Origin: an uncultured Clostridia bacterium
GTDB lineage: Bacteria; Bacillota; Clostridia; Christensenellales; UBA3700
Direction: 5' to 3'
DNA: 57,646 nt
Assembly: GCA_944380395.1 (NCBI GenBank)
Contig: CALWHM010000009.1
Location: forward strand, 1 to 57,646
Positions 4,810 through 24,739 of this stretch are shown here, one piece after another. Every line of letters starts with the position of its first letter. The stretch's first letter is position 1. The notes beneath the pieces are model-generated. The model did no database searches. It saw only the letters and a program-made list of their open reading frames with translations, and was not told where the DNA came from. The position numbers were made by a program, and so were the translations under genes.

Positions 4810-4840
4810 AAATACCTCCTATATATCAAGTTCACCATCA

Positions 4841-4858: not shown

Positions 4859-4898
4859 CTGTATCAAAAAAATATGGTTTTGCTCCCGCTTTCCGCGC

Positions 4899-4916
4899 AG
4901 TTCGTATATGCGAACT
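4899..4916. promoter_or_regulatory. 18-bp palindromic operator, copy 4
   Basis: AGTTCG-TATATG-CGAACT has perfect outer arms and lies upstream of the ABC pair and downstream of tetR. With copy 3 it brackets the presumed ABC promoter. Confidence 0.7.
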
Positions 4917-4932
4917 ATATGCCCGAAAGAGC

Positions 4933-4956
4933 GGGGCTTAAAGCCCCTGTTTTTCC
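4933..4956. terminator. Weak terminator-like hairpin after tetR
   Basis: GGGGC-TTAAA-GCCCC forms a short GC stem just past the tetR stop. The T-run is better on the plus strand (TGTTTTTCC), so termination of the minus-strand tetR transcript is only plausible. Confidence 0.35.
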
Positions 4957-4961
4957 TTATA

Positions 4962-5582: not shown

Positions 5583-5602
5583 ATTCTGCCCTGTTTTACT
5601 CG

Positions 5603-5642
5603 ATAACAATGTTATTATAACACCGTTATTTTATTCTGTCAA
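5603..5642 (-). promoter_or_regulatory. tetR promoter with two tandem TetR operators
   Basis: On the minus strand TTGACA (5642-5637) and TATAAT (5619-5614) are separated by 17 bp, a consensus sigma-A promoter. Two 13-bp palindromes of form ATAACNNNGTTAT (5603-5615 and 5617-5629) flank and overlap the -10 box. Their position and symmetry fit binding by the TetR protein encoded just downstream. Confidence 0.75.
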
Positions 5643-5792
5643 CAATATTATATGTGTTTCAAGTAAAAAAATTACTCGTTAAAAAATCGCAAGCTTTTAG
5701 CGTTTTGCGATTTGCCAGCTGATTTATCGATCTGTGCCGCCTGTTTTCACGTCTTTATAAAAGAGCCGACGTAAGACGCGATCGCTTGCCTT

Positions 5793-6515
5793 TCAAAACG
5801 GGAGCGCGGTATCGTCTTTTACTTCTTCAAGCGCGTCGTTTTCAAAATCTGTTATTGCAATAAACAGCCGTGCGAACGCAAGCGCCCAACTTAACGGATC
5901 GTTTCTGGCTTTATCGCTTTCTTTACTGTTCGGATTGAAAAAAATATCGTAATCGGCAAATATATCCGTCCAAAAATTCAAATGATCCAGCTTTTCCGCA
6001 ATACGCAATATATCCGTATGTTCGATGTCTTGTTCCCCGTCTTCAAGCATCTCTTTGACTTTTGCCGCTTGGACTATATCCGCCAGTGCGAATACGGGAT
6101 TGTTAAAAAAGAATCCGTATGATTTTGCATACATTTGAAAAAAGTCAAAAGGCGTGTTATACGAAGATGTTTTATGCCGCACAAGAATGATACTGTCTTC
6201 CGTAAAATCAAAAAACTTTTCAACCGCCTCTTTCAAAGACGGAGCGCCTATCAAATGCGCGGGAGTGATCCCGAACCGCGACATACAATCCCCGTCGTCA
6301 TATAAATTTTCGGCTTTCACTCCGTCCAATCCGATAAAATTTGTATAGTGCTCGCATATTTTTCCGTTTTGTATCTTCACCGCCGCTATCTCCGCGATCG
6401 GCGCGCAAGTGAATTTCAATCTTTCCTTGCTTTTGCTATCCGCCAACTCGCCGGAAACCCAATCCAAAACCGTAAATTCCACCATCACGTATGTATTCTT
6501 TTTTGTGTTATACAT
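5793..6515 (-). CDS. Degenerate DEDD exonuclease-like protein
   Basis: This 240-aa protein has the layout of a DnaQ-type 3'-5' exonuclease domain without its catalytic residues. The strand usually reading D-x-E is YVMVEFTVLDW. It is followed by EIAAVKIQNGKICEHYTNFI (like EIGAVKI..GKI...F..L), then RFGITPAHLIGAPSLKEAV and ILVRHKTSSYNTPFDFF, where H-N-x-x-F-D is expected. The fold resemblance is inferred from motif order only. The ATG at 6515 is preferred over one seven codons earlier because AGAGG lies seven bases upstream. It stands alone, with non-coding gaps of about 130-210 bp on each side. It could be a nucleic-acid-binding or regulatory descendant; the function is unknown. Confidence 0.6.
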   Translation of the reverse strand: MYNTKKNTYVMVEFTVLDWVSGELADSKSKERLKFTCAPIAEIAAVKIQNGKICEHYTNFIGLDGVKAENLYDDGDCMSRFGITPAHLIGAPSLKEAVEKFFDFTEDSIILVRHKTSSYNTPFDFFQMYAKSYGFFFNNPVFALADIVQAAKVKEMLEDGEQDIEHTDILRIAEKLDHLNFWTDIFADYDIFFNPNSKESDKARNDPLSWALAFARLFIAITDFENDALEEVKDDTALPF

Positions 6516-6643
6516 TGTAAAACCTCTCATATGCAAAATATTTATTGTATACAGAATAACGCAACCAATGTACCGAAAACGGGATAATACTTGCCTATGT
6601 CAAGCACACGTTATGGTGACAAGTCGATTTTGCTTACACTATA

Positions 6644-7825: not shown

Positions 7826-8500
7826 ATGGAATACAACTCTTTATTGCTCGAATCTTCCGCCGTTAAAGGCTTAAAGGAGGAAGAATTCGTGCGCCGCGGC
7901 TGCCGCATAACGCACGGACTGCTGCCTTCCGGCGGAGAATACTACACTTTGACGGAGCGCGGCGACGCGCCTTTGGTAAAGCTTTTGTCCGACTATATCA
8001 AAAAACTGGCGGGCGAAGACCCGGACCGCATACTCATTGTGGGCTTGGGCAACCGCGGCATGACGGCGGACGCCTTGGGCAACACCGTTTTAAGCCGTCT
8101 TAGCGCGGGCGGCAAGCCTTACTTTTGTCTGATAGCGCCGCAAGTGAGCGTGACCACGGGCGTGGAGAGCGCGGAAATAGTCGCCGGCATAAGCGAGCGC
8201 GTCCGTCCCGATCTGACTATTTTGGTGGACACCCTCTCCACCTCGCGCTACGAACGCTTGGGCAGATGTTATCAGCTGGGCAACTTCCCTCTTGTACCGG
8301 GAAGCGGCGTGGGAAACGCCAAAGTTTTGACGACAAAAACAAAAACTCTTTCCTTGGGCGTGCCGTTGGTGATAAAGCTGGGCGCCCTGGGCGTGGAAGC
8401 GCTAAAAGACCACGTGGTCACCCCCGCCGATATAGACGAGCGGGTCGCCGTTTGCGGAGAAAATATCGCAAAAGCGATAAATACGGCGTTCGGAAAATGA
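7826..8500 (+). CDS. gpr: GPR endopeptidase (germination protease, peptidase A25)
   Basis: GPR degrades the small acid-soluble proteins that coat spore DNA during germination. The signature segments are ILIVGLGNRGMTADALGN, TTGVESAEIVAGISERVRPD and LTILVDTLS, then PLVPGSGVGN. The two Asp residues equivalent to the proposed catalytic pair (in TADALGN and LVDTLS) are both present. At 224 aa it is much shorter than the Bacillus enzyme (about 370 aa) and lacks a long C-terminal part. No RBS precedes the ATG at 7826. An in-frame GTG at residue 22 has AAGGAGG eight bases upstream and may be the real start, but that would remove the propeptide-like N-terminus. Confidence 0.93.
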   Translation: MEYNSLLLESSAVKGLKEEEFVRRGCRITHGLLPSGGEYYTLTERGDAPLVKLLSDYIKKLAGEDPDRILIVGLGNRGMTADALGNTVLSRLSAGGKPYFCLIAPQVSVTTGVESAEIVAGISERVRPDLTILVDTLSTSRYERLGRCYQLGNFPLVPGSGVGNAKVLTTKTKTLSLGVPLVIKLGALGVEALKDHVVTPADIDERVAVCGENIAKAINTAFGK

Positions 8501-8537
8501 AGCGACTCTCCGCCACGGCGGACAAAAGCGTCCGCGC

Positions 8538-8563
8538 AAAGCCGTCAACCGGACGGCTTTTTC
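8538..8563 (+). terminator. gpr: gpr terminator
   Basis: AAAGCCGTC-AACCG-GACGGCTTT plus TT lies 38 bp after the gpr stop. It is a standard intrinsic terminator. Confidence 0.75.
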
Positions 8564-8878
8564 GTTTGTCTTATTTTTTCAACGCATTCTTCCCAAAGAC
8601 GGGAGATAAACTCGTTCTGCAAGCGCTGGCAGACGTTAAGCCCGGCATTGCGGCGTGCAGTGTTTCCGAAAGCGGTTGCAACAGCGGCAAATGCAGTGCA
8701 ATAAAAGTGATTGTAAGTGATTAAAACGCTTCGGCGAAAAACTTAACCGCCGAATATAAAACCTCATGCCCGCTTACGCTTTTACGGTTAATTGTTAGCC
8801 TGTTTTCGGAAAATATTCGTCAAAACCTTATTTATTGAGTCTTTGCCTGCCTGCGAATAACAGCCGTAATTAAAAAAT
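8564..8878. other. Intergenic stretch, no gene seen
   Basis: About 315 bp between the gpr terminator and the terminator of the XRE gene. A plus-strand frame beginning ATGA at the gpr stop runs to 8724, but it crosses the terminator and has no family resemblance, so it is not called. Confidence 0.5.
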
Positions 8879-8910
8879 ATCCCTCCGGAAAATCATGATT
8901 TCCGAGGGAT
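8879..8910 (-). terminator. Terminator of the XRE gene (possibly bidirectional)
   Basis: ATCCCTCCGGAAA-TCATG-ATTTCCGAGGGAT-type hairpin. On the minus strand it is followed by a TATTTTTTA run and starts six bases past the XRE stop. Confidence 0.75.
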
Positions 8911-8915
8911 ACTTT

Positions 8916-9215
8916 TTATTCTTCGAATACTTCTATCAGGGCTTTTTGCTGCTTGGGGGATAATTTGCGGAAACACTGCAACATCTGCCTTTCGGTTTCG
9001 CTCAATATCTCCACCCTTTCGTTTTCCAAAAAGAATTGCGAAAGCGTTATTCCGAATGCGTTGCAAATGCATTGCAAAGTCTCTAACTTCGGAGGCGATT
9101 TCCTTGCATACAGCGAACTGAGCGTTGCAATCGGAATCCCCGCCTTTTGCGCCAATTTATAGTCCGTCCAACCGCGTTGCCCCTGTAAAACCTTTATTTT
9201 TCCAAGTATATCCAT
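8916..9215 (-). CDS. XRE-family HTH regulator beside the RM-like operon
   Basis: This 99-aa protein has one N-terminal XRE/Cro HTH: KLAQKAGIPIATLSSLYAR, then LETLQCICNAFGITLSQFF. The C-terminal helix LSPKQQKALIEVF resembles small single-domain repressors. It is transcribed divergently from the methylase operon across 109 bp, the geometry of a restriction-modification controller (C-protein-like), although this role is inferred. The ATG lies only six bases after a TATAAT on its own strand, so its mRNA is probably leaderless. The promoter interval holds the palindrome TGCAATTGCA (9254-9263) as a possible operator. Confidence 0.85.
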   Translation of the reverse strand: MDILGKIKVLQGQRGWTDYKLAQKAGIPIATLSSLYARKSPPKLETLQCICNAFGITLSQFFLENERVEILSETERQMLQCFRKLSPKQQKALIEVFEE

Positions 9216-9221
9216 GTATGT

Positions 9222-9227
9222 ATTATA
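9222..9227 (-). promoter_or_regulatory. -10 box of the XRE gene (leaderless)
   Basis: TATAAT on the minus strand lies six bases before the ATG at 9215. No good -35 hexamer is visible, so the promoter may need an activator or an extended contact. Confidence 0.5.
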
Positions 9228-9253
9228 CTATGCATTTGTATACGGCTATATTC

Positions 9254-9292
9254 TGCAATTGCATTGACATTTTTTCGCGTTTGCAATATAAT
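9254..9292 (+). promoter_or_regulatory. Promoter of the RM-like operon with adjacent palindrome
   Basis: TTGACA (9264-9269), 17 bp, TATAAT (9287-9292) is a full-consensus sigma-A promoter. The palindrome TGCAATTGCA (9254-9263) abuts the -35 box and is a candidate operator for the XRE protein. A consensus promoter on such a system suggests that repression is important. Confidence 0.75.
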
Positions 9293-9324
9293 GATATTGA
9301 ATTTGCGTAATATACGGGGGTGTT

Positions 9325-10026
9325 TTGTTGTCACAAAATCAGACCAAATCGAAAAAACGCGTGCGCGATCACGGGGAAGTTTTCACGGCGGAGTGCGAAG
9401 TTAAGGCGATGTGTGACCTTGTGAAGGACGAAACCGAACGCATAGACAGCCGTTTTTTGGAACCCGCTTGCGGAACCGGCAATTTTCTTGAGGAAATTCT
9501 TACGCGCAAACTTGCCGTCGTCAAGAAATTGCATAAGTCCAACCCCTATGATTATGAACGGTACGCCGTGCTTGCCGTCACGAGCATTTACGGCGTGGAG
9601 ATACTTGCGGACAATGCGCAAGAGTGCCGCGAACGCTTATTTGCGTTGTGGAACAAGGAATACACCGCCGTGTGTAAAAAATCGGCAAACGACGAAACGC
9701 GGGAAGCGGTGAAATATATCCTTTCAAAGAATATTCTTTGCGGGAACGCCTTGACGCTTATGTGTGTGGACGAAAACCAAAAAGACACCGATACGCCCAT
9801 CATCTTTCCCGAGTGGAGCTTGCTTGGGACAAAGTTAAAGCGGCGCGATTTTAGATTGGACGTAATGCTAAAAGCGGGAGATAAACCCAACCGCGGGCAA
9901 TCTTCTATGTTTGAAGAGGATATATACAAATATTTGTCCGTTAATCCCGTAACGGGAGAACTTATGGCGGAACCTATATGCGAATATCCGCCCGTACATT
10001 ACAGGAGAGTGCAAGAAAATGGCTGA
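9325..10026 (+). CDS. Gamma-class adenine methylase, subunit A (no NPPY)
   Basis: This 233-aa protein belongs to the N6-adenine DNA methyltransferase superfamily. It has the gamma-class start [17 protein letters not shown] and the SAM-binding motif [17 protein letters not shown] near residues 45-59, then a motif II-like SIYGVEI. It ends before any (N/D)PPY catalytic tetrapeptide, so alone it cannot complete the reaction. The next gene, overlapping by 8 bp, supplies NPPY. Translation starts at TTG (9325 or 9328) after GGGGG. It is the first gene of the operon and sits behind a consensus promoter. Confidence 0.8.
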
Positions 10027-11557
10027 AACTTTTTTTGATAAAATCTATAAAAACAAAACTTTGCACACGCCCGACGTGCTTTCCTGTTTGGCAAATTTGA
10101 GCAATGACGAAGTATTTACCCCGCCCGACATTGCAAACAAAATGCTCGACCTTTTGCCGCAGGAACTGTTCAAGGACCCAAACACCACTTTTTTGGATCC
10201 TGCGTGCAAGACAGGCGTGTTTTTGCGTGAGATAGCCAAACGGCTGATTGTGGGCTTGCAGGACGTTTTTCCGAATTTGCAGGAGCGCCTGGACCACATA
10301 TTCCATAAGCAACTTTACGGCATTGCGATTACCGAACTTACCAGCCTGTTATCCCGCCGCAGTCTTTATTGCAGTAAATATCCCAACGGCGAATATTCCG
10401 TATCGCAATTTGATACCGCAGACGGAAATATCTTTTTCCGCCGCGTAAAACATACTTGGGTGAATAAAAAATGCAAATTTTGCGGAGCGAATCAACAAGA
10501 ATATGACCGCGGCGATGATAAAGAAAATTACGCATATGAGTTCATACATACTTTAGACCCGGAGAAAATTTTTAATATGAAATTTGACGTAATTATCAGC
10601 AATCCGCCTTATCAGTTGAGCGACGGCGGCGCACAATCAAGTGCAAAACCGATTTACAACTTTTTTGTTGAACAGGCAAAAAAATTGTCTCCTCGATATA
10701 TTTGTATGATTATTCCTGCTAGGTGGTATGCGGGCGGTAAAGGTCTGGATAGTTTTCGCAATAATATGTTGCATGACGACCGCATTTGCGTTATCCATGA
10801 TTATCCTAATGCTTCTGACTGCTTTTCAGGGGTCGAAATTAAGGGTGGTGTTTGCTACTTTCTATGGAGCAACGCTTATCATGGACTTTGTACCGTATAT
10901 TCCCACTTAAACGCAGAAAATACCTCACAATTGCACCGTCCGCTATTAGAAGCAAATTGCGACACCTTCATACGCTATAATGAAGCTATCGGCATTTTAC
11001 ATAAGGTGCTCTCTTTTAATGAGGAATCTTTTTCTAAGCTCGTCTTTGCTGCTAAAACTTTTGGATACCGAACTTATTTTACCGACTTTGATATAAAAAA
11101 TGCTCCTGGCAAATACGATAGGAAAGATATTGTTTTGCTTTATGCAAACCATTCGCAAGGATATATGTATAGAAAATCCTTTACTACAGGAGTAAAGTAT
11201 ATAGACAAATGGAAAATTTTTATTCCAGAAGCAGTTGGCAGTGGTAATCTGGAAACCACGATACTAAAACCAATTCTCGGAGCCCCGGGGACAGCTTGTA
11301 CCGAAACATATATTATGAATGGACCCTACGAAAATGAGCAAACAGCAAAAAATGCTATATCATATATAAAAACAAAGTTTTTTCATTTCATGATGGGGTT
11401 AAAGAAAAATACTCAACACACTACAAAATCTGTCTATCAGCTTGTCCCTATGCAAGACTTTTCAAAGCCGTGGACGGACGAAGAATTATATAAGAAATAT
11501 AACCTATCAAAAGATGAAATAGCCTTTATCGAAAACATGATAAAACCTATGGAATAA
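10019..11557 (+). CDS. Eco57I-like adenine methylase, subunit B (NPPY)
   Basis: This is a 512-aa gamma-class DNA methyltransferase. The N-terminus repeats the subunit A pattern ([17 protein letters not shown], then [15 protein letters not shown], residues 31-72), with K replacing the second-position Gly of motif I. The catalytic motif [10 protein letters not shown] is at residues 194-200, followed by [14 protein letters not shown] possible zinc pair CKFC is at 152-155. From about 10550 onward the codons become much more AT-rich than in the first 500 bp, consistent with an exchangeable target-recognition half. The role is methylation of the cognate site to protect from the helicase/nuclease encoded downstream. 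Confidence 0.85.
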
Positions 11558-11632
11558 TGCGTATGTTTTTATATTGACTTTTACATATTGATATGTTAAA
11601 AAATATTAAATAACGCTTAAGTGAGGTAATGT

Positions 11633-12505
11633 ATGAATAAAGCAATTAATGTAGCAACATCTTTTATGAAAAAGTACAACATTCCAAGTGCTACCTTGTA
11701 TCACTATTGTCCTCTTTCTACACTTCTAAGTATTATCGAAAGCATGGAACTTTGGCTTGGTCGTACTGCGTATATGAATGATACTCAAGAAGTGTATTAT
11801 TTTATCAATAATTTAAATAGTTGCTTACAGAAAACTCTCCCTAAAAATAAATTACAACGTTGCAATACCATATTTAAAGAAGTGGATCGTCAGATACTTG
11901 AAGAGTCTCGCTATGCTTTCTGCTTGTCCGAACTATATGATGACGCTGCGCAATGGGAAAGATATTCCGATAATGCCTGCGGCGTTTCCCTTGGTTTCAA
12001 CCCTACTGTACTTATAGCTCTTATACATAATATCCCTCTCACGTTTACACAAGTAGTTTATGGCTATGACCCCATGAATCACGATGTCTATAAAGTGTTG
12101 AAGGAGTATATTGAAAACGATCCGTTCATTGATGATTTTCGTAAAGTCGACGGTATAATCAGCAATATGTTGGCATGTGCAATAAAGTATAAGCACGCAA
12201 GTTTTTCCTCCGAGCAAGAATGGCGGGTAGGCACCCTGTTGAGCGATAATAACAGCTCACAGTTTTGCCCCGATTTCCGTCAAGATTTCAAATTAATGAG
12301 TAATGGCTCTGTAAGGAGCGTTGTCGTTTTAGATCTAAAACGCCGCTGTTCGCGATTTGACATAGCCTTTGATGACTTGTTTGACAATATAATAATAGGT
12401 CCTCGTTCAAAACAAAGCGTTGGAGAATTTCAAGGTTATTTGAAAAAATTAGGTCATGATAAATTGGCTGAAAAAGTATACAAATCAACATGCCCTTTAC
12501 GCTAA
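11633..12505 (+). CDS. DUF2971 domain protein in the RM-like operon
   Basis: This 290-aa protein has the DUF2971 pattern. It begins with LYHYCPLSTLLSIIESMELWL and NDTQEVYYF, then ESRYAFCLSELYDDAAQWERY and ACGVSLGFN, with EQEWRV later. The family is often seen in defence islands; its reaction is unknown to me. It has its own RBS (GAGGTAATGT) and an AT-rich 75-bp gap with a possible promoter (TTGACT near 11575). Its AT-rich base use differs from that of the helicase that follows. It may be an accessory effector or an inserted cargo gene; insertion between a methylase and its restriction partner is unusual. Confidence 0.75.
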   Translation: MNKAINVATSFMKKYNIPSATLYHYCPLSTLLSIIESMELWLGRTAYMNDTQEVYYFINNLNSCLQKTLPKNKLQRCNTIFKEVDRQILEESRYAFCLSELYDDAAQWERYSDNACGVSLGFNPTVLIALIHNIPLTFTQVVYGYDPMNHDVYKVLKEYIENDPFIDDFRKVDGIISNMLACAIKYKHASFSSEQEWRVGTLLSDNNSSQFCPDFRQDFKLMSNGSVRSVVVLDLKRRCSRFDIAFDDLFDNIIIGPRSKQSVGEFQGYLKKLGHDKLAEKVYKSTCPLR

Positions 12506-12518
12506 CATGGAGTAAAAA

Positions 12519-15389
12519 ATGGCAAATAATATAAGTCTTTCCGAAATACTGCATACCCGCCCTGCCGTGGTGCCCACGATATACGGCTACATACTGCCCG
12601 ATTTGAGCGATCACGACGGATATATAAAGATAGGTTATACCGACCGCGACGTGGAAACACGCATACGCGAACAGTTACATGCGGCGGCGATAAACTTCAA
12701 AATTTTATTCAAGGAATCGGCAATGCGACCGGACGGCACCTGCTTTACGGACAAGGACGTGCACAGACTGTTAAAGCGCAAAGGCTTTTTGCAGTTAAAT
12801 GCGGGCGCTGACAGGAACGAATGGTTTAAGTGTACCCTTTCGGACGCGCTTACGGCGGTTGAAGAACTGAGGACGGAAACGCGGTTCGAGGGTAACCGCA
12901 CGTGGAATTTTACCATGCGGCGCGAACAAAAAGCCGCCGTGGACATGACAAAGGCTTATTTTTTGCAGGCAAAAGCGGACGACCCTTCGCGCCCGCCCAA
13001 ATTTTTATGGAATGCGAAAATGCGCTTCGGAAAGACCTTTGCCACATACGAGCTTTGCAAGGCGATGAATTTCAAAAAAATTCTCGTGCTCACATTCAAG
13101 CCCGCCGTGGAATCGGCATGGCAGGAAGACCTTACCCGCCATGTGGATTTCAAGGGCTGGCAGTTTGTTTCCAACAAAGAAGCGCGCTTTGACGCGAAAA
13201 AGCTGGACGAACAATACGAAGCCTGTGACAAGACAAAGCCCATTGTGGTATTCGGCTCATTTCAGGACCTGCTGGGCACGAATGAAGCCGGCGGCATAAA
13301 GGCAAAGAACGAATTTATCCACGCTACCAACTGGGACATAATAATATTCGACGAATACCACTTCGGAGCATGGCGCGAAAACGCAAAAAATCTGTTTGAG
13401 AAGTTTGACGAAGAAGACAACGATTTCGACCTTGAAAAATATCAAACGGAAGAAGCCGGCAATGCGATAAACGAAACTTTTCTTCCCATAACGTCCGCAC
13501 ATTATTTATATCTGTCGGGCACGCCGTTCCGCGCGCTTAATTCGGGTGAATTTTTAGAAGATCAGGTTTTCAATTGGACTTATTCCGACGAACAATCCGC
13601 AAAAGAAACTTGGGACAATTCTTTGGGAGAAAACCCTTATGCCTCCTTGCCCAAAATGGTAATGCTCACATATAAAGTGCCCGATTCGATAACCGCAAAC
13701 GTGGCGATAAACGAAGGATATGACGAATTCGATATAAATGAGTTTTTCCGCGCGGAAGTGCCCGAAAAAGGCAAGTTGGACTCTGCGCGCTTCGTATACG
13801 AAGAGGACGTGCAGAAGTGGCTTAAAATGATACAGGGAAACTATATGCCTGTGGACGGCTTAAAGCTGGGCGCGGAACGCCCGCCCATGCCCTTTTCCGA
13901 CACAACGCTTTTGAACGTACTTTCGCACACCTTATGGTTTTTACCCAATGTGGCAAGTTGCTATGCAATGTATAACTTGCTCAAACAAAAGCAAAACAAC
14001 TTTTTTGCCGATTACAAAGTCGTAGTCTGTGCGGGAGCCAAGGCGGGGATCGGGCTGGACGCATTGCGTCCCGTTTTGAGCGCTATGGGGGACCCTCTGA
14101 CCACCAAGACGATAACCTTATCCTGCGGCAAACTTACTACAGGCGTCACCGTTCGCCCGTGGGCGGGAGTTTTTATGCTGCGCAATTTAAAGTCGCCCGA
14201 AACATATTTTCAAACCGCTTTCCGCGTGCAATCTCCTTGGGAAATAACAAACGATAAAGGAGATAAGGAGATAATCAAGCAGGAGTGCTATATCTTTGAC
14301 TTTGCCTTAGAACGCGCCTTGCACCAAATATCCGACTATTCGTGCCGTTTGAAAGTGGACGATACAAGCCCTGAGCAAAAGGTTTCGGAGTTCATATCCT
14401 TCTTGCCCGTGCTTGCCTTTGACGGTTCGTCAATGAACAGAATAGACGCGCAAGATATTCTTGACATCACCTATGCCGGGACTTCCGCCACCCTGCTTGC
14501 AAAGCGTTGGCAAACGGCGCTTTTGGTCCATGTGGATAACGATACGCTGAAAAAGCTGCAAAACAATCAAGCCGCGCTGGACGCACTTATGCGGATAGAG
14601 GGCTTCCGCTCTTTGAATACGGAAATTCAAACCATCATCAACCGCTCTGAAAAGGTAAAGAATCTCAAAAAAGAAAAAGGCGACAACCTGACGCCCAAAC
14701 AGAAAAAAGAGCTTTCCGAAGAGGAAAAGCAGACAAAATCCTTGCGCAAACAAGTGCAGGAAAATCTTTTGAAGCTTGCCGCTCGTATTCCCGCCTTTAT
14801 GTACCTTACCGATTACCGCGAACAGACAATTAAAGACGTCATCACTCAAATAGAACCCCAACTGTTTCAAAAAGTCACGGGACTTACGGTCAAGGATTTT
14901 GATGTGCTGTGCTCAATCGGTTTGTTTGACGCGGAAAAAATGAACCAAGGCATTTTCGGCTTCCGCAAATACGAAAATTCCAGCCTTTCTTATACGGGCA
15001 TTGACAAGCACGAAGGCGAAGCTGTGGGCGGCTGGGATACGGTTTTGCGCCGCGAAGAATACGATGCGTTATATTCAAAACAACAAGCCTCTTTGACAGA
15101 GTTCGAAAAAGTCCTTATTCCGGAAAAATACCGCAAAACCGCCGAGGACAACGCCTCTCCTTCCCTTTCAAAATCCATCGAGCCCTTGAATGAAGAACCC
15201 GCAATCAATTGGGAAGAAATACTTGCGAATGTGCACTTAAATACGAATGTTATGCATAAAAAATTCGGAAGCGGCTCCATTTCTTGGATAAGCTCCGACA
15301 AAAAATATCTGCGCGTAAAATTCGCCGTAGGCGAAAAGCAATTCGTCTTTCCAAACGCCTTTATATCTGGCTTTTTGACCGTGCAATAA
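12519..15389 (+). CDS. GIY-YIG (T5orf172)-DEAD/DEAH helicase fusion, restriction-like
   Basis: This 956-aa protein has a nuclease-like N-terminus: IYGYILPD and GYIKIGYTDRDVETRIREQ (residues 21-52), with NEWFKC near 107, match the T5orf172 branch of GIY-YIG domains. A superfamily 2 motor follows, with the Walker A-like AKMRFGKTFATYE near 165-180, DEAH-type box IIFDEYHFG near 275-283, YLSGTPFRA (motif III), KLTTGVTV (motif V) and TAFRVQSPW (motif VI). The C-terminus MHKKFGSGSISWI...VKF resembles the small Tudor-like tail of UvrD proteins. The architecture suggests ATP-driven translocation with cleavage by the N-terminal domain. The gene starts 13 bp after the DUF2971 stop, and no RBS stands out clearly. 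Confidence 0.85.
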   Translation: MANNISLSEILHTRPAVVPTIYGYILPDLSDHDGYIKIGYTDRDVETRIREQLHAAAINFKILFKESAMRPDGTCFTDKDVHRLLKRKGFLQLNAGADRNEWFKCTLSDALTAVEELRTETRFEGNRTWNFTMRREQKAAVDMTKAYFLQAKADDPSRPPKFLWNAKMRFGKTFATYELCKAMNFKKILVLTFKPAVESAWQEDLTRHVDFKGWQFVSNKEARFDAKKLDEQYEACDKTKPIVVFGSFQDLLGTNEAGGIKAKNEFIHATNWDIIIFDEYHFGAWRENAKNLFEKFDEEDNDFDLEKYQTEEAGNAINETFLPITSAHYLYLSGTPFRALNSGEFLEDQVFNWTYSDEQSAKETWDNSLGENPYASLPKMVMLTYKVPDSITANVAINEGYDEFDINEFFRAEVPEKGKLDSARFVYEEDVQKWLKMIQGNYMPVDGLKLGAERPPMPFSDTTLLNVLSHTLWFLPNVASCYAMYNLLKQKQNNFFADYKVVVCAGAKAGIGLDALRPVLSAMGDPLTTKTITLSCGKLTTGVTVRPWAGVFMLRNLKSPETYFQTAFRVQSPWEITNDKGDKEIIKQECYIFDFALERALHQISDYSCRLKVDDTSPEQKVSEFISFLPVLAFDGSSMNRIDAQDILDITYAGTSATLLAKRWQTALLVHVDNDTLKKLQNNQAALDALMRIEGFRSLNTEIQTIINRSEKVKNLKKEKGDNLTPKQKKELSEEEKQTKSLRKQVQENLLKLAARIPAFMYLTDYREQTIKDVITQIEPQLFQKVTGLTVKDFDVLCSIGLFDAEKMNQGIFGFRKYENSSLSYTGIDKHEGEAVGGWDTVLRREEYDALYSKQQASLTEFEKVLIPEKYRKTAEDNASPSLSKSIEPLNEEPAINWEEILANVHLNTNVMHKKFGSGSISWISSDKKYLRVKFAVGEKQFVFPNAFISGFLTVQ

Positions 15390-15462: not shown

Positions 15463-15827
15463 TGGTGGAGCTGAGGGGAGTTGAACCCCTGTCCGAAAAA
15501 CTTAAAGCGGCGACTTCTACATACTTAGCCGATTGTTATTGTTCCCTCAAAGCCGGTCAAACGGCAAACCTGCCTATCGGAAAGCCGCTTGTCTTGCAAT
15601 CCGTGCCGCGGCGATCACGGTTGCCCTGTTCCGCTTGGTTCTGCCGGAGCGGGATCGCGGAACTTCCCGTCCGACACTCCGCTATATGTTAAGCAGCGAA
15701 GGCGAGCGTTTGAGCGCTCTCGTTTCTGTTATTGTTTGCGTTTAATTTTAATTTCCGTTTTTACGAAGACGAGCCTTCGGTATGCTTACTCCGCCCGCCA
15801 TTCCCCGTCGAATGCCGGAACAGCCCC
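15463..15827 (-). ncRNA. ssrA: tmRNA (ssrA)
   Basis: The 5' end reads GGGGCTGTTCCGGCATTCGA and the 3' end is a T-arm plus acceptor ending in CCA (GTTCAACTCCCCTCAG then CTCCACCA). The acceptor arms GGGGCUG/CAGCUCC pair. The mRNA-like part encodes, by my reading, the tag ANNNRNESAQTLAFAA followed by TAA. tmRNA with SmpB rescues stalled ribosomes and tags the product for proteolysis. The length of 365 nt is normal. ssrA 3' ends are frequent integration sites, and the RM-like island abuts this one. Confidence 0.95.
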
Positions 15828-15976: not shown

Positions 15977-17290
15977 ATGAATACAGACCACGCTTGGAAA
16001 TTGTCATATTATAACTTAATCATAGACAACTTTAATGATGTTGTTTGTATTTGGAATACTAAGCACGGCTCTGTTGTTCAACTCGATAAAGACATCTATT
16101 CTTGTTTTGAAAAAAATTTTTTCGACTCAATTCCGTCGTCAGACCTCGCCTCTTATATTAAAGAAGGGCTTTTGGTACCGCAAGACTTAGATGAACAACA
16201 AGAAATACTTTTTACCGCTCGGCAAAGGCAATACTCCTTAGGTCAGTCATCGTTAGGTTTCGTTATTGCTCCAACAGTCGCATGCAATTTTAGATGCCCA
16301 TATTGTTTTGAACAAGGTATTGATCGTTGCGGTTATATGTCAAAAGAAACTCAGCGGCTATTTATTGATTTCCTTGAAAAACTTCTGCATAATAATGCTA
16401 ATATTAAGAATGTAAGGATAACTTGGTTTGGCGGAGAACCTTTACTTGCTTATGATAGCGTCATTGTTCCGTTGCAAAGCAAAATTATCGCTTTATGTCA
16501 TAAAATGAATGTGACGGTTGCTTTTAGCATTATTACCAACGGATACTTTTTAACCTCTGAAAAACTTGATTTTCTATTTAAAATCGGGCAAACAAAATTT
16601 GTTCAATTAACACTTGACGGTTCGGGCGAAGAATATGCAAAGCGTAAAAGCACTTCGATTGATGCTTTTTACAGGGTTGTTGATAATTTACTTAACTTGT
16701 CTGATTATTTGCACAAAAACACTATAGATGCAAAAATTAAGGTCAGGCTCAACGTCGACAATGATAATTATGAAGATGTTAAAAATCTTGCTTTGTCTTT
16801 AAAATCAGATTCGCGTTTTTGCGATAACATTGATTTCTCTCTGGAACGCTTACGCAAGTATGGTCATTGCCAAGAATTACAATCCTTTTGTACAACCGAG
16901 GAGTTTGAACATCTAAAATACGATTTCAATTCTTTTCTTGAAAAATCTTTCAAGTTCCCGGAACCTAAAACCGTTTTTTGCGGTCAGCATTGTATGAATG
17001 TATTTTGCGTCGGGATTAATGGTGAACTTTATAAATGCGAACACGATATCGGTATTCAAAAACACGCTGTCGGCAATATCCGGAACGGTTTGACATATAA
17101 TAAGTATTTCTTGGATTTTATGGATTTGCCATTACCGAAAAAGTGCTTGAGCTGCAAAATACTTCCGGTATGTATGGGCGGCTGTCCTCATCGCCGACTT
17201 ATGAATAACAACAATACAGAGTGCGATTTTACAATTAATAATCTTATTAAAGTTGTAAAACATTTTATTTCAGAAAAGGAGGTAAATTAA
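15977..17290 (+). CDS. Radical SAM/SPASM peptide maturase
   Basis: This 437-aa enzyme has the [4Fe-4S]-SAM motif CNFRCPYC (Cys 103, 107, 110), the SAM-binding WFGGEPLL, and a C-terminal SPASM region: CVGINGELYKCEHDIG, GNIRNG, then CLSCKILPVCMGGCPHRR and a final Cys. The N-terminal about 90 residues (VVQLDKDIYSCF, IKEGLLVPQDLD) look like the peptide-recognition front end of RiPP maturases. The gene is AT-rich compared with its neighbours. Its last codons, AAG GAG G, are the RBS of the 27-codon peptide gene that starts at the very next base. The enzyme most likely installs a thioether or C-C crosslink in that peptide. CcpM/CLI_3235-type maturases are a possible relative, from memory only. Confidence 0.88.
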   Translation: MNTDHAWKLSYYNLIIDNFNDVVCIWNTKHGSVVQLDKDIYSCFEKNFFDSIPSSDLASYIKEGLLVPQDLDEQQEILFTARQRQYSLGQSSLGFVIAPTVACNFRCPYCFEQGIDRCGYMSKETQRLFIDFLEKLLHNNANIKNVRITWFGGEPLLAYDSVIVPLQSKIIALCHKMNVTVAFSIITNGYFLTSEKLDFLFKIGQTKFVQLTLDGSGEEYAKRKSTSIDAFYRVVDNLLNLSDYLHKNTIDAKIKVRLNVDNDNYEDVKNLALSLKSDSRFCDNIDFSLERLRKYGHCQELQSFCTTEEFEHLKYDFNSFLEKSFKFPEPKTVFCGQHCMNVFCVGINGELYKCEHDIGIQKHAVGNIRNGLTYNKYFLDFMDLPLPKKCLSCKILPVCMGGCPHRRLMNNNNTECDFTINNLIKVVKHFISEKEVN

Positions 17291-17374
17291 ATGAAGGTTA
17301 TCAAGGAAACGTCCGTTAATTATGGAAGCACTATTAGCGACTGTTGTGATGACTGTGATTGGGGAGTAGATTAA
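17291..17374 (+). CDS. Candidate RiPP precursor peptide, 27 aa, Cys-rich core
   Basis: This very short gene starts with ATG immediately after the maturase TAA, with AAAAGGAGG seven bases upstream, an excellent RBS. The product begins MKVIKETSVNYG, which serves as a leader. It ends in an acidic core with Cys18, Cys19, Cys22 and Trp24 (motif CCDDCDW), then G-V-D and TAA. Spacing, RBS strength and the adjacent SPASM maturase all point to a ribosomally made, post-translationally modified peptide. No protease or exporter gene is adjacent. A large hairpin terminator follows 27 bp later, so the maturase and peptide form a complete transcription unit. It resembles, from memory only, Clo7bot-type Cys-rich peptides, but is shorter. 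Confidence 0.8.
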   Translation: MKVIKETSVNYGSTISDCCDDCDWGVD

Positions 17375-17400
17375 TACAACTCTTTTCGGTTACCAACCTA

Positions 17401-17480
17401 AAAAGAAGGCAGTACGATATTTATCTATGCTTTAATTGCTCTACTAGTAGATAAATATCAGCAACTACTGCCTTTCTTTT
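17401..17480. terminator. Bidirectional terminator between the two radical SAM genes
   Basis: A long two-part stem: AAAAGAAGGCAGTA (17401-17414) pairs with TACTGCCTTTCTTTT (17466-17480), and ATATTTATCTA (17417-17427) pairs with TAGATAAATAT (17448-17458). A- and T-runs at both ends serve both converging transcripts. Confidence 0.85.
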
Positions 17481-18499
17481 TATGATTGCATTAGCTGATT
17501 AAACGAGTAGTTTGTCCATTGGCAAGAACAACTATCGCAAATGTGATTATATGTACACTTTAAACATTTTTTACTTGGTAAAACATAGCATTCGTCGTAT
17601 ATTTGTTTAACATATTCGGATTCACAATAGGCTTGCAGCTCCTCTCCGGTTGTAAAGTCGTTATAAAGTTGCCCGTATCTTTTCGTGTACATCGCACTAC
17701 AAGGAATCAAATTCCCTTTGCTATCAAAAATATAATCCGATCGATCTTTTACCGGGCACCCTTTAGCCAGTTGACCTTTTTTTGCCAACATTTCAATAAA
17801 GTCTGCACCCCAAAAACATGCCGGAAATGTCGGAAAGACCCCTATTTGCTGACACGTTATATTGTCTAATTCTTCATATATTGCTTTAAATTTTTCCACT
17901 ATTTTCCGAGGTTGCGTTCTTTCAATATAATTTTTATAACCGGAAGACATATCGTAGTTATACTCAAACGTAAATCTAAATTTTTTAATGCCGATCTTGC
18001 ATAATCCCCCTATACATTCTAACAGCTTTGCAATATTCTCTTTTGTCACAACCATAAATGCCACAACCGAAATGCCTAATGACAGGCATTTTTCCATCCC
18101 GGCAATTACATTATTGTACATATCCACACCTGTAGTTTCTTTAAATATGTCCGCAGTACTGCCTTTAAGCGAAACAGATATATTGCTAACCCCATGCTTT
18201 CCTAATTCTTTCACGAACACCTTATCGCTTAGCTTAATACCATTAGTAAGGAAACCTGTCTTACATTGTTTATAATTAATATATGTAAGTAAATCTAATA
18301 AATTTGGATATAATGTCGGCTCCCCGCCAATTAATTTAATGTGTTTCACTCTTAATTCACTGAATATATCTACGATATGTTTTGCCACTGAAAGAGGCAT
18401 GGTATCTTTATCGTCATAACCGACATCTTTTGCGTAGCACCATTTGCAACGTAAATTACACACTCTGTTTAAAGTTATGCACCCGTTCACAAAACTCAT
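17480..18499 (-). CDS. Second radical SAM/SPASM protein of the RiPP-like locus
   Basis: This 339-aa enzyme begins with the cluster motif CNLRCKWC (Cys 14, 18, 21) and continues with IKLIGGEPTLYPNL and FLTNGI. The C-terminus is a SPASM-type region: IFDSKGNLIPCSAMYTKRYG, then CLKCTYNHICDSCSCQW. It converges on the maturase/peptide pair and shares the same AT-rich composition, so it was probably acquired with it. It could be a second tailoring enzyme for the same peptide, or act on an unlinked substrate. No peptide gene is seen in the 80 bp upstream of its start. The RBS is AGAGGCGG before ATG 18499. Confidence 0.85.
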   Translation of the reverse strand: MSFVNGCITLNRVCNLRCKWCYAKDVGYDDKDTMPLSVAKHIVDIFSELRVKHIKLIGGEPTLYPNLLDLLTYINYKQCKTGFLTNGIKLSDKVFVKELGKHGVSNISVSLKGSTADIFKETTGVDMYNNVIAGMEKCLSLGISVVAFMVVTKENIAKLLECIGGLCKIGIKKFRFTFEYNYDMSSGYKNYIERTQPRKIVEKFKAIYEELDNITCQQIGVFPTFPACFWGADFIEMLAKKGQLAKGCPVKDRSDYIFDSKGNLIPCSAMYTKRYGQLYNDFTTGEELQAYCESEYVKQIYDECYVLPSKKCLKCTYNHICDSCSCQWTNYSFNQLMQS

Positions 18500-20790: not shown

Positions 20791-22647
20791 ATGAGCATAA
20801 CAGATAAATATTTGCAAAGTTACATCTCCGCGCATTTGGAGAATTCTTACGAGATAAACTATACGGAGATCCCGGAGAGTCTGGGTTTGGAGACGTATTT
20901 TTACGACGAGCTGCCGAACACGGAAGTGAAGGGCTATCCGCTGGCGAGCGATTTTGCGGCGCCGGACGGCTCCGTTTATTCGATGACGGAATACGAAAAG
21001 CTTTCCGCCGCCAAGAAAAAGGAGTGCCGCCTGCGCTACCACTTCCTGCCCATAGAGCACGAGATATATCTGGGCACTACGGGAAGCGGCAAGACCACCG
21101 GCTGCATAGAGCCGCAGCTGCGCGCCATCTCCTCGCAAAAAAACAAACCGAACATCTTTGTGACAGACCCTAAGGGTGAACTTTTCAACCACAATGCGGA
21201 ACATATGAAGAAAATGGGCTATCGCACTTTTGTGCTCAACTTCAAAAACACCACCCGCTCCAACAAGTGGAATCCGCTTTCCGACCTGCTGGAAGTGGTG
21301 CGGCAGATAAAGGGCGTGCGCGCTTCTTCTCCCGAACATTGCACGGGCAGGATACCCGACGGCGTTCCCAAAAACGCGCCCTCATCCGCCTTTGTTTCGG
21401 GCAGATATTATATGTTCGACGGCAAAGCGTTCCCCACCCTTGCCATGGCAAAGCAGATGAAGAAGGTGAAGGAAAACGACCTGAACGTGGAGCTTTCTTC
21501 CCTGATCAACAGTCTGGGCAACACCTTCATCAAGGTGGAGAGCACAAAAGACCCCACCTGGGAGAAGGCGGCGCAGGATCAGGTCAAAGGCTTTTTGCAG
21601 GCGATGTGCGACTATCTGCTCGACCCGTTCAGCGGCTTTACGGAGGATATGTTCACCATATACACGATGACGCAGCTTTTCAACGTGCTCAGGCGCGGAA
21701 TGATGCGCAGATCGGATTCGCGTTCGCGTCCCGACGTGTTCACGCACCCTTTGGTAAAGAATCTGCCCCGTCAGACGCAGAATATGTTCGCTTCCGTATT
21801 CGCAAGCTCTCCCATAACCATGCTCTCGCACCTGAGCGTGCTGGGCAACAGTTTGGGGCCGTGGTGCAAACCGCACATCTACGCGCTCACCACGGGCAAC
21901 GACATAGAGCTTTTCGATGAGAAGGACGATTCTCCCTTCGCCATCTTCGTCATTACGCGCGACTACGAGGCGAGCGACTACGACATAGCCGCGCTGTTCG
22001 TGGACTGGGTATACCGCAATATGGTGGAATATGCGGAGGCGTGCGCCGAACAAAACAAGTCTTGGCGCGACACGCACTTTTTGCTGGACGAATTCGGCAA
22101 TATCCCCAGCATAAACTCCTTTGAAAACAAAATAGCCACCTCCCGTTCGCGCAAGATATACTTCCATCTGGTGCTGCAATCTTACGCGCAGCTGCAAAAC
22201 GTGTACTCTTCCGACGCGAACAATCACTCAGTGGCGAACATAATAAAGGACAACTGCAACAGCATAAACTTTTTGGGTTCGCAGAACGTGGATACCAAAA
22301 AGTCTTTCTCCGACGACTGCGGCTCCAAGACCGTGCTTTCTCCCTTTGTCAAACTGAGCGACGGGGGCGCCCTGCCGCTGTCCACGGTGCCGCTTATGCC
22401 GCTGAGCAAACTGGACCTGCTCACCCCGGGCGACATTTACAGCAAGCGCTTGTTCTTCCCGCTGATAAAAGCGCGCTACGTGCGCAGCTATGTGGCGGCG
22501 GCGCACGGGGATTATCCCGGATTTCTCAACGCGCGCGGCTTGACGGAATTCACGCCCGTCACGCTTGAACCGTACATAAGCGAGAAGTTCCATTTCCCTC
22601 TGCTCAGCGCGGAGTCTGTGGACAAGTGGGAAAATTCCTTCTTTTAA
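20791..22647 (+). CDS. VirD4/TraG-type coupling ATPase, stand-alone and without membrane anchor
   Basis: This 618-aa protein carries the type IV coupling protein NTPase core: Walker A GTTGSGKTTG (residues 95-104), IFVTDPKGELF and KWNPLSDL, then Walker B FLLDEFGNIPSI and the sensor-like LVLQSYAQLQNVY. Coupling proteins normally recruit DNA or protein to a type IV channel. Here no N-terminal membrane helix is visible (the first 90 residues are polar), and no relaxase, VirB4 or other T4SS gene occurs in the window. Codon use matches that of the housekeeping neighbours, so it looks resident, not a recent conjugative import. The function of such solo copies is unclear. Confidence 0.85.
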   Translation: MSITDKYLQSYISAHLENSYEINYTEIPESLGLETYFYDELPNTEVKGYPLASDFAAPDGSVYSMTEYEKLSAAKKKECRLRYHFLPIEHEIYLGTTGSGKTTGCIEPQLRAISSQKNKPNIFVTDPKGELFNHNAEHMKKMGYRTFVLNFKNTTRSNKWNPLSDLLEVVRQIKGVRASSPEHCTGRIPDGVPKNAPSSAFVSGRYYMFDGKAFPTLAMAKQMKKVKENDLNVELSSLINSLGNTFIKVESTKDPTWEKAAQDQVKGFLQAMCDYLLDPFSGFTEDMFTIYTMTQLFNVLRRGMMRRSDSRSRPDVFTHPLVKNLPRQTQNMFASVFASSPITMLSHLSVLGNSLGPWCKPHIYALTTGNDIELFDEKDDSPFAIFVITRDYEASDYDIAALFVDWVYRNMVEYAEACAEQNKSWRDTHFLLDEFGNIPSINSFENKIATSRSRKIYFHLVLQSYAQLQNVYSSDANNHSVANIIKDNCNSINFLGSQNVDTKKSFSDDCGSKTVLSPFVKLSDGGALPLSTVPLMPLSKLDLLTPGDIYSKRLFFPLIKARYVRSYVAAAHGDYPGFLNARGLTEFTPVTLEPYISEKFHFPLLSAESVDKWENSFF

Positions 22648-23366: not shown

Positions 23367-23374
23367 AAATGCGT

Positions 23375-24739
23375 ATGGAAAATAAGGATGTGAATTTGTT
23401 ATGGGAAGCCGTTGTCGTGGATTTGATGCCGCAGATATCCACGGTGTCCTTTCAAGTGTGGTTTTCCAACGTAAAACCGCTTAATTTTTACAACAACAAG
23501 CTTGTTTTGAGCGTAAAACTGCATTCCAACAAAAAGCAGTTGGATAACACCTACCGCGAACTGATAGTAAAATGCATTCGCAAAAACAGCGATTACATAG
23601 ACGACTTCATCGTGGTTTTGGAGGACGAAGGGCAGCCGCTGCCCGAAGAAAGCTCCGCCGCCGTGGTCGGGGAGCCCAAGGCGAAGGCGGACAATCCGGA
23701 AAGTTCGCACTTCAAAGCCGCCTTCACTTTCGACAACTTTGTGGTGGGCGACAGCAATCAGCTTGTCTTCGCCGCCGCAAAGACCGTGGCGGAAAATCCC
23801 GGGAAAAGCTACAACCCGCTGTTTATCTACGGCGGCGTGGGCTTGGGAAAAACGCATATAATGCACGCCATCGGCAATCATATAGCCGCCACAAAGCCCG
23901 AACTCAGGGTGCGTTACGCCGCGGCGGAAACTTTCACCAACGACTTTATTGAGAGCATTCGCACAAATAAAGATTCGGGGCTGAACAAACTGTTCCGTGA
24001 CAGCTACCGCAACGTGGACGTGCTTATGCTGGACGATATTCAGTCCATCGCAGGCAAACCCAGCACGCAGGAGGCGCTTTTCCACACCTTCAATTACCTT
24101 GTGGAAAACGAAAAACAGATAGTGTTTTCCAGCGACCGCCACCCCTCCCTGCTGAACAACATAGAAGACAGGCTCATCTCCCGCTTTGCCTCCGGGATCA
24201 CCGTGGACATATCTCCGCCCGGACTTGAAACTCGGATAGCCATAGTTCAGCGCAAGGCGTACGGCAAGCGCTTCCATATCTCGCAGGAGTGCGTGTACTA
24301 CATAGCGGAAAAGATACACACCAACATCCGCGAGCTGGAAGGCGCGCTGAACAAGGTGGTGTTTTATTGCGAAATGAACAAAGTTGCGGCAGACAGCGTG
24401 GACATAATACGCGACGCTCTGCGCGACGAGATAGAAGACGGCGGAAGGGCGCTGGACCACGAGGACATCATCGCCGCGTGCGCCGCCTACTTCGGGGTAA
24501 AGTCGGACGATATAACCGGCTCCCGCCGCAGCAAACAGATAGCTTACGCGCGGCAGCTTGCGATATATCTCATATACGATATTCTCGGCTTGCCGCTTGC
24601 GGAGATAGGCACTTATTTGGGCGGCAGAGACCACACCACGATAGGCTATGCGCGCGACAAGATAGACAAGATGCGCCGCGACGATCCCATTGTGGAAAGA
24701 CAGATACAGGACATTCGCGCCAAGCTGGGCAAGGCTTAG
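23375..24739 (+). CDS. dnaA: Chromosomal replication initiator DnaA
   Basis: DnaA binds oriC DnaA boxes and, as ATP-DnaA, melts the origin. Domain I is at residues 1-85 (LLWEAVVVDLMPQISTVSF). The AAA+ domain has FDNFVVGDSNQLVFAAA, Walker A GGVGLGKTH, Walker B VLMLDDIQ and sensor FSSDRHP. The C-terminal domain IV carries RDHTTIGYARDKI for box recognition. The start at 23375 gives MENKDVN, matching relatives, while an ATG two codons earlier is an alternative and a TTG at 23396 has AAGGA in front. dnaN is not adjacent; parB follows after 63 bp, with a GCCGTC/GACGGC hairpin between them. Confidence 0.98.
   Translation: MENKDVNLLWEAVVVDLMPQISTVSFQVWFSNVKPLNFYNNKLVLSVKLHSNKKQLDNTYRELIVKCIRKNSDYIDDFIVVLEDEGQPLPEESSAAVVGEPKAKADNPESSHFKAAFTFDNFVVGDSNQLVFAAAKTVAENPGKSYNPLFIYGGVGLGKTHIMHAIGNHIAATKPELRVRYAAAETFTNDFIESIRTNKDSGLNKLFRDSYRNVDVLMLDDIQSIAGKPSTQEALFHTFNYLVENEKQIVFSSDRHPSLLNNIEDRLISRFASGITVDISPPGLETRIAIVQRKAYGKRFHISQECVYYIAEKIHTNIRELEGALNKVVFYCEMNKVAADSVDIIRDALRDEIEDGGRALDHEDIIAACAAYFGVKSDDITGSRRSKQIAYARQLAIYLIYDILGLPLAEIGTYLGGRDHTTIGYARDKIDKMRRDDPIVERQIQDIRAKLGKA

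Follow-up and report, generated by a model that had tools for sequence, protein, structure and literature searches.

A putative three-gene cassette in Clostridia pairs two unlike radical SAM enzymes with one 27-residue peptide

Among ribosomally synthesized and post-translationally modified peptides (RiPPs), sactipeptides carry a thioether at an alpha carbon (Calpha), while ranthipeptides carry one that runs from cysteine to a non-alpha carbon; in another use of a peptide substrate, PqqA is the source of pyrroloquinoline quinone (PQQ). Several described systems built on radical S-adenosylmethionine (SAM) enzymes serve as precedents. PapB joins cysteine to aspartate across zero to six intervening residues, each link costing 2 Da (PMC9413430), the radical SAM enzymes TrnC and TrnD of one RiPP pathway work jointly as a complex (PMC12093266), ruminococcin C (RumC) requires both RumMC1 and RumMC2 (PMC8188230), and PqqE, which has no RiPP recognition element (RRE), requires the separate protein PqqD (PMC8326336). 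Here we describe a locus at positions 15977-18499 of contig CALWHM010000009.1 (assembly GCA_944380395.1) from an uncultured Clostridia bacterium, of which a stretch of 57,646 nucleotides, called the window throughout, was analysed. Two radical SAM genes, here named rSAM1 and rSAM2, converge on a 27-codon open reading frame (ORF), and comparison with two further loci makes it probable that the three form a self-contained, horizontally moving RiPP cassette in which both enzymes act on the one peptide.

The cassette is compact, at about 2.5 kb. rSAM1 (15977-17290, plus strand, 437 amino acids (aa)) is recognized from its ORF, its family matches and its orthologues in the loci L135 and L034, and encodes a radical SAM enzyme with a seven-cysteine SPASM pattern. 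Its stop codon abuts, with zero gap, the start codon of the 27-aa precursor peptide MKVIKETSVNYGSTISDCCDDCDWGVD (17291-17374, plus strand); an earlier note on this DNA, which saw an 84-bp ORF opening at the base after position 17290 and a peptide ending in CCDDCDW plus three residues, was correct in both. The near-perfect ribosome-binding site that it placed in the last codons of the maturase gene is likewise there, as the Shine-Dalgarno sequence AAGGAGGT at 17276-17283 (plus strand). Between the convergent genes lies a large hairpin (17401-17480), whose 3' arm touches the stop codon of rSAM2 (17480-18499, minus strand, 339 aa), the second radical SAM gene, which is also known from family matches and orthologues in L135 and L034. 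The hairpin folds at -28.7 kcal/mol with a z-score of -5.3, and none of 200 shuffles was as stable; it is the large closing terminator of the earlier note, though a simple consensus terminator scan of the window did not list it, and it probably serves as a bidirectional terminator. The peptide has no match in Pfam or NCBIfam, and its tail, D-C-C-D-D-C-D, is strongly acidic and thiol-rich.

All three loci compared, namely the window, L034 and L135, hold these three genes in one order and with the same convergence. L034 (CALVLT010000021.1, from a metagenome-assembled genome of an uncultured Clostridia bacterium) was the best match when a named genome collection was scanned with an alignment of six rSAM1 homologues and the best 80 of 573 confirmed stretches were considered; it holds rSAM1, a four-base overlap, the peptide MIVLKESSVSYEADVTSCCNQDCDWGID, a hairpin and a convergent 339-aa rSAM2. 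A separate search of 391 genomes of the class at E <= 1e-40, with an rSAM2 alignment built from the window, L034, L010 and L023, returned three genomes: the window's own, G679 and G866. In G679 (locus L135) rSAM2, rSAM1 and the peptide MTVIKETSVFYGSTISDCCDDCDWGID are arranged as in the window, and the two genomes belong to different families of one class; G866 shows no such arrangement. Each new locus was thus found through one enzyme, and the other two genes then lay beside it. AGGAGG precedes the peptide in all three cassettes, and hairpins follow at the corresponding position in L135 (z-score -6.2) and L034 (z-score -7.9). The flanks differ: in the window they are a transfer-messenger RNA (tmRNA) gene and a 307-aa protein with only sub-threshold Pfam matches, in L034 a 1926-aa ORF without a Pfam match and citrate synthase, and in L211 an integrase-core fragment and a protein of metallo-beta-lactamase fold. 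Since the peptide, its start-site signal, the hairpin and the convergent gene are kept in two other loci, the arrangement in the window is more than chance.

The peptides of the three loci are invariant in 15 of 28 alignment columns (M1, V3, K5, E6, S8, V9, Y11, C18, C19, D21, C22, D23, W24, G25 and D27), which outline a conserved N-terminal half, MxVxKExSVxY, and a tail, CC..DCDWG[VI]D, with constant C22-X4-D27 spacing. An ORF of just 27 codons that belongs to no Pfam or NCBIfam family could in principle be a chance reading frame behind rSAM1, but the nucleotide differences indicate otherwise. Across the 28 codons, stop included, the window and L135 share 14 identical codons and differ by 11 synonymous and three non-synonymous ones; by the Nei-Gojobori method this amounts to 12.0 differences over 14.5 synonymous sites against 4.0 over 66.5 non-synonymous sites, and thus to strong purifying selection on the peptide. 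Between the window and L034 the synonymous sites are saturated, with 18.1 differences over 65.5 non-synonymous sites. The pattern CC(x1-2)DCDWG, furthermore, occurs in none of 100 window shuffles and once in the genome searched. Orthologues, selection and shuffles together refute the chance frame, whose probability we regard as practically nil. As the earlier note had anticipated, a conserved short ORF comes immediately after the maturase gene in its two closest homologues; in both it is orthologous to the window's ORF and 27 or 28 aa long.

rSAM1 itself carries the radical SAM motif C103-X3-C107-X2-C110, invariant in all 38 aligned homologue rows, and scores 51.4 bits against Pfam Radical_SAM (cut-off 29.5). 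The seven-cysteine SPASM pattern, CX9-15GX4C, CX2CX5CX3C and a final C, is complete in C335-X13-G349-X4-C354, C390-X2-C393-X5-C399-X3-C403 and C416; the SPASM assignment is made on the match to NCBIfam TIGR04085 (53.4 bits, cut-off 27), because the Pfam SPASM model matched neither enzyme at E <= 0.1. Among the NCBIfam families listed (25 of 50 for rSAM1, 25 of 60 for rSAM2), TIGR04085 is the sole model that rSAM1 reaches at its curated cut-off. RiPP maturase models align over most of its length at scores below theirs: the Clo7bot maturase TIGR04334 (180.9 bits, cut-off 600; residues 10-430, E 3e-53), CefB (170.9, 600), TIGR04463 (169.5, 525), geopeptide (149.6, 400), FlmE/OhkG (128.1, 500) and PapB NF047865 (111.3, 340; residues 100-413). 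All three cassette enzymes match TIGR04334, the best E of the three being 2.9e-53. When a profile of the 38 homologues was compared with solved structures, the best match was 5wgg (E 9e-44), which we take to be CteB, a SCIFF/ranthipeptide maturase; the sactipeptide maturase SkfB (6efn) was matched far more weakly (E 1e-14). An N-terminal region of about 95 residues, common to 17 aligned rows, has the size and place of an RRE, and rSAM1 is 63% identical to its L135 counterpart without gaps and 52% identical to that of L034.

The three cassette copies of rSAM1 group together with support 100/99 in a midpoint-rooted tree of the 38 homologues; L035 and L012 are sister to them (support 99/98), and the Clo7bot enzyme L007 lies far away. 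Membership of rSAM1 in the Clo7bot family was therefore considered and rejected, both on its score (180.9 bits against 600) and on its position apart from L007.

Taken together, these matches suggest that rSAM1 makes a thioether of some kind, which we hold to be fairly probable; that the bond runs specifically from cysteine to aspartate, as in ranthipeptides of the PapB type, is by analogy finely balanced and leans slightly towards doubt. rSAM1 may instead be a dedicated maturase of this peptide with other chemistry, making either the Calpha thioether of a sactipeptide or a carbon-carbon bond at Trp24 or Tyr11, a possibility to be taken seriously if not a likely one. The invariance of Trp24, Gly25 and Tyr11 in the three peptides would suit it, as does the fact that rSAM1 scores too low for any listed maturase family at its curated threshold, so that no chemistry is transferable. 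However, aspartate is interleaved with cysteine in many precursors of the nearer homologues, as expected if aspartate is the acceptor, and PapB, whose model is among the six best, is a Cys-to-Asp enzyme (PMC9413430).

rSAM2 is a different kind of enzyme. Its CxxxCxxC motif occupies residues 14-21, and because the motif starts at residue 14 there is no room for an N-terminal RRE. Its later cysteines are arranged as C248-X13-G262-X4-C267, then C312-X2-C315-X5-C321-X2-C324 and C326, the last spacing being one residue under the standard; no SPASM model matches it in Pfam or among the NCBIfam matches listed. The earlier note was right that a second radical SAM gene converges on the peptide; the SPASM label that it gave this enzyme is drawn from the cysteine pattern and from no family match. 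The best NCBIfam matches listed are MoaA-type models over the first half; PapB NF047865 aligns over residues 10-335 at 74.6 bits, below its cut-off of 340, and MoaA is the best solved structure for the rSAM2 profile (E 4e-10). Identity is 62% to L135 and 44% to L034, both without gaps. Among five further homologues, 29-40% identical, two adjoin a long Cys/Asp-rich peptide of their own, which follows the enzyme directly with touching or overlapping frames and carries YGECDCSNCMVCTDCRDSDCDCELDCDCDCDYDC in L010 and EYGDCDSNDCYTKKDCDCACVCECDCDCHCVCECDDCDCYC in L023; the group is therefore likely, on sequence grounds, to include peptide maturases. No other small Cys-rich ORF adjoins rSAM2 in the ORF lists of the three cassettes, and the simplest reading of these two points is that it shares the 27-aa peptide.

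It is also conceivable that only rSAM1 modifies the peptide and that rSAM2 serves another peptide or a small molecule, being linked for reasons of regulation or mobility. Its place on the opposite strand and its want of an RRE-sized N-terminal region are compatible with this, as are the settings of its homologues elsewhere, beside their own peptides (L010, L023), after an ABC-type ATPase (L136, L214) or on a terminase contig (L137). Yet the convergent partner is kept in three of three loci with differing flanks, and none of them offers rSAM2 another small Cys-rich ORF in the ORF lists, so that we rate this alternative as quite improbable. The proposal of the earlier note that both enzymes work on one peptide gains from the same linkage, and we consider it quite likely on the evidence of gene arrangement.

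Beyond the cassette, many rSAM1 homologues lie beside short ORFs that start like M[EK][IV][IL][IK] and have tails rich in Cys and often in Asp as well. Examples are MEIIKDAINNYDFALCNCDNNNSTDSCPGGYDASWDQCAAN, which lies downstream of the enzyme gene in L035, and MEILIKAKPNFTSYAYPCSDDQCGDCKSQGADGCSTDATCYSD, which lies upstream of it in L014 (the same contig as L037); the start of the window peptide, MKVIKET, agrees with this leader. The earlier expectation that a short ORF always follows the maturase fails at this distance: 23 of 96 loci have a flagged ORF, comprising the two cassette relatives, 11 loci with the ORF upstream and 10 with it downstream, and 73 have none. Nor is the peptide as exceptional in size as had been suggested, since homologues in L044 and L051 lie beside ORFs of 27 and 25 aa and of 28 aa, respectively; precursor size alone is not unique.

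A leader rule (an ATG start, 20-100 aa, at least three Cys and 7% Cys, the leader pattern, the same strand, within 450 bp) is satisfied beside 21 of the 38 rSAM1 homologues, the window's included, and beside two of 78 control genes (other ORFs of at least 250 aa in these loci, at a distance above 1.5 kb), which favours the link between maturase and peptide; the contrast is descriptive, because the pattern was read partly from these loci. Gene order, orthology, selection on the peptide and the superfamily of the enzymes are established, and several observations weigh against the further step to a joint two-enzyme cassette. The other 17 homologues have no flagged ORF; they include every Bacteroidota row (four), two of the three from Actinomycetota and several from Clostridia. 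The N-terminus of rSAM1 matches no Pfam RRE or PqqD model at E <= 0.1 and, among structures, 8vpo weakly only (E 0.0022). Three of the five further rSAM2 homologues have no neighbouring Cys-rich peptide: those of L136 and L214 follow an ABC-type ATPase, and in L011 the next ORF has 27 aa with one Cys and the enzyme frame itself lacks CxxxCxxC; the rSAM2 family is therefore not limited to targets of this type. With rSAM2 on its own strand, joint action is inferred from linkage. The L034 peptide has one residue inserted between C19 and D21, the sole length change, which leaves the Cys-Asp spacing less than fully constant. The cassettes number only three, one in a metagenome-assembled genome (L034), one on a 4.3-kb contig (L135) and one in an assembly that is 88% complete in 66 contigs (the window).

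In the joint model, rSAM1 and the peptide would be co-transcribed and probably translationally coupled. The conserved half MxVxKExSVxY would act as the recognition sequence, probably read by the N-terminal region of rSAM1, which would then modify the tail CC..DCDWG[VI]D. The likeliest reaction would be that of PapB, a bond between a cysteine sulfur and an aspartate side chain; C22-X4-D27, around D-W-G, would be the best candidate ring. rSAM2, without a recognition domain of its own, may act there too, either as part of a complex with rSAM1 or once rSAM1 has finished, its docking depending on rSAM1 or on the modified peptide, and may add a second modification, perhaps another thioether or a Trp-centred carbon-carbon bond, any specific chemistry for rSAM2 being doubtful at present. 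As the cassette holds no exporter or leader protease, its product should act in the cell or use genes elsewhere.

The setting of the cassette bears on that last point. Among the part of the flanking ORFs that was scanned, none adjoining the three cassettes was recognized as an exporter, a leader peptidase or an immunity-like gene. The earlier statement that no protease or exporter is linked thus stands for the immediate neighbours and does not extend to the window, where an ABC transporter gene pair with a TetR-type regulator (1295-5609, about 11 kb from the cassette) and a GPR-type germination protease (7826-8500) lie 7-15 kb away. The want of recognized export, peptidase and immunity genes beside the cassettes, together with the strongly acidic, thiol-rich tail, would suit a reading in which the peptide is, much like PqqA, the source of a small cofactor, or in which its modified acidic Cys cluster serves as an intracellular metal ligand and not as a secreted bioactive. 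We consider this unlikely: no oxidoreductase or processing gene travels with the cassette as far as was seen, RiPP loci without linked export also occur, and the window does hold ABC transporter genes 11 kb off. A bolder and similarly unlikely version is that of a new RiPP class, in which the two unlike enzymes would jointly remodel the ten C-terminal residues of a 27-aa peptide that stays uncleaved. The outcome would be a compact polycycle of Cys, Asp and Trp that works in the cell as a peptide-derived cofactor or metal ligand, its whole genetic basis being a 2.5-kb cassette that moves between bacterial families.

Movement between genomes would fit the rarity of the cassette (counts include the query's own genome, and the genome sets overlap). 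rSAM2 relatives occur in three of 100 near relatives at 1e-20, three of 397 genomes of the order at 1e-25 and the three of 391 in the class at 1e-40; at the latter threshold they are also found in one of 201 relatives of the L034 genome, two of 186 in the order of G679 and one of 207 in the phylum. rSAM1 relatives were found at 1e-30 in two of 100 near relatives and 13 of 397 genomes of the order, and at 1e-60 in one of 13 of the family of G679, which is G679 itself. Six other genomes of the window's genus (G001-G006) yielded neither rSAM1 (1e-30) nor rSAM2 (1e-20). The cassette has a G+C content of 35.3% in a window of 48.4%, 32.2% in L135 against 39.1% outside it, and 58.1% in L034, higher than its flanks at 52.6%; these contrasts are consistent with horizontal movement, of which composition alone is no proof.

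Carriage by viruses or plasmids was considered as well and rejected, with no carrier of the cassette in the plasmid, phage and viral-contig searches. The L135 peptide had no match in plasmids or phages (tblastn, E up to 10), and single-protein scans of viral contigs gave no relative of the window rSAM1 or of the L034 rSAM2. Alignment scans of the viral contigs found weaker relatives only, at 38 loci for rSAM2 and 36 for rSAM1, the best for rSAM2 being L137 (36% over residues 1-159, in an ORF cut by the contig end). This viral contig carries the rSAM2-like ORF at 5909-6583 (plus strand, cut off) and an ORF that looks terminase-like by eye at 2858-4702 (minus strand). The DNA pattern of the peptide occurs in 24 stretches of viral contigs. 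Among the loci scanned for a CC(x1-3)DCDWG frame, nine viral ones have it, but no radical SAM-like ORF lies in the stretch covered, and they are therefore taken as chance.

The surveys also brought up other loci. In L136 (2559-4016 with 1480-2520, both minus strand) and L214 (33-1424 with 1465-2529, both plus strand) the rSAM2 homologue lies directly after the ABC-type ATPase, which matches Pfam ABC_tran and by eye resembles a UvrA paralogue; the pair is possibly a separate system. Two genomes have, beside Cys/Asp-rich precursors, a protein of 199-233 aa that begins with a hydrophobic stretch and matches nothing in Pfam or PADLOC (L028, 7758-8459, minus strand; L030, 8758-9357, minus strand); it may be an export, immunity or effector partner in the wider family. 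In L030 a single maturase is preceded by four Cys/Asp-rich precursors, all different, whose leader is ME[IV]LI or MKILI (8199-9506, minus strand), the gene for the 199-aa protein sitting between the third and the fourth. In L035, from Candidatus Scatousia (taxonomy: Bacteria incertae sedis), two similar tandem precursors starting MEIIKDAINNY and MEIIKEAINNY follow the maturase (5294-5683, plus strand). L008 (9247-14440, G017:C4) is an island in which three radical SAM genes are accompanied by as many Cys-rich ORFs, each different; CNPD/CGPD repeats (MLLLEDVTDTVRVITMCNPSYDDPSTCNPDSGWCNPD...) mark one of them, and DNA-methylase-like genes, so judged by eye, lie a few kb off.

In the window, a tmRNA gene (15463-15827, minus strand, tag ANNNRNESAQTLAFAA) precedes the cassette, with a 12-of-12 match to a sigma-70 promoter at 15867-15839; upstream of this promoter, at a distance of about 110 bp, rSAM1 begins and is read in the opposite direction. 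The idea that the promoter is an invertible switch was dropped once it was placed as that of the tmRNA gene. On the 3' side of the tmRNA gene, 9325-15389 (plus strand) holds restriction-modification and other defence-type genes, including MmeI-type and Eco57I-type methylases, a DUF2971 protein with a weak PDC-S31 match and a T5orf172-helicase with a Type IIG-like match. A TraG/VirD4-type coupling protein (20791-22647, plus strand) lies near an ORF that is DnaA-like by eye (23369-24739).

As a very small complete RiPP system, with two enzymes and one 27-residue substrate in about 2.5 kb, the cassette should be unusually easy to reconstitute. It would offer a direct test of how a partner steers a radical SAM enzyme without a recognition domain to its substrate, and of the chemistry that two different SPASM-type enzymes place on one ten-residue core. 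The survey, in addition, reveals that Cys/Asp-rich precursors with a short leader make up a wider family, present in Clostridia and also outside them, a good part of which comes under no NCBIfam name tested. No description of the cassette was found in the open-licence PubMed Central papers searched, which likewise gave no hit for the motifs DCDWG, CCDDCDW and CCNQDCDW or the name Clo7bot, such absence being weak evidence.

How, then, does the cassette compare with known systems? To Clo7bot (TIGR04334) it is linked by the similarity of rSAM1 over residues 10-430 and by a Cys-rich precursor that opens directly with a short leader, a trait of the Paraclostridium plasmid copies too; it differs in having one 27-aa precursor with three Cys where Clo7bot has a series of longer ones, in its second enzyme, and in having no adjoining transporter, where the Clo7bot plasmid copy has one. 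As with PapB ranthipeptides (NF047865), the target is rich in Cys and Asp and the enzyme is of the SPASM radical SAM kind, but rSAM1 reaches 111.3 bits against a cut-off of 340, a second enzyme is added, and six CX3D/E motifs in PapA (PMC9413430) contrast with three Cys in the 27-aa peptide. The sactipeptide systems of thuricin CD (TrnC/TrnD) and ruminococcin C (RumMC1/RumMC2) likewise employ two radical SAM enzymes in one RiPP pathway; the cassette enzymes, in contrast, match different best families, one lacks an RRE-sized region, and they converge on a single 27-aa peptide with no adjoining export genes. L012 and L035 hold the closest relatives of rSAM1 outside the cassette, with precursors that start MEIIK[DE]A and a Cys-rich ORF downstream in both, L012 having one upstream too; unlike the cassette peptide, these precursors have 40-57 aa with four to nine Cys, and no linked rSAM2 was seen on the short contigs (5.9 and 6.9 kb). 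The radical SAM RiPP is thus a known kind of system, to which the cassette adds a pairing of unlike enzymes around one 27-aa Cys/Asp/Trp peptide that carries no NCBIfam name at cut-off among the matches listed.

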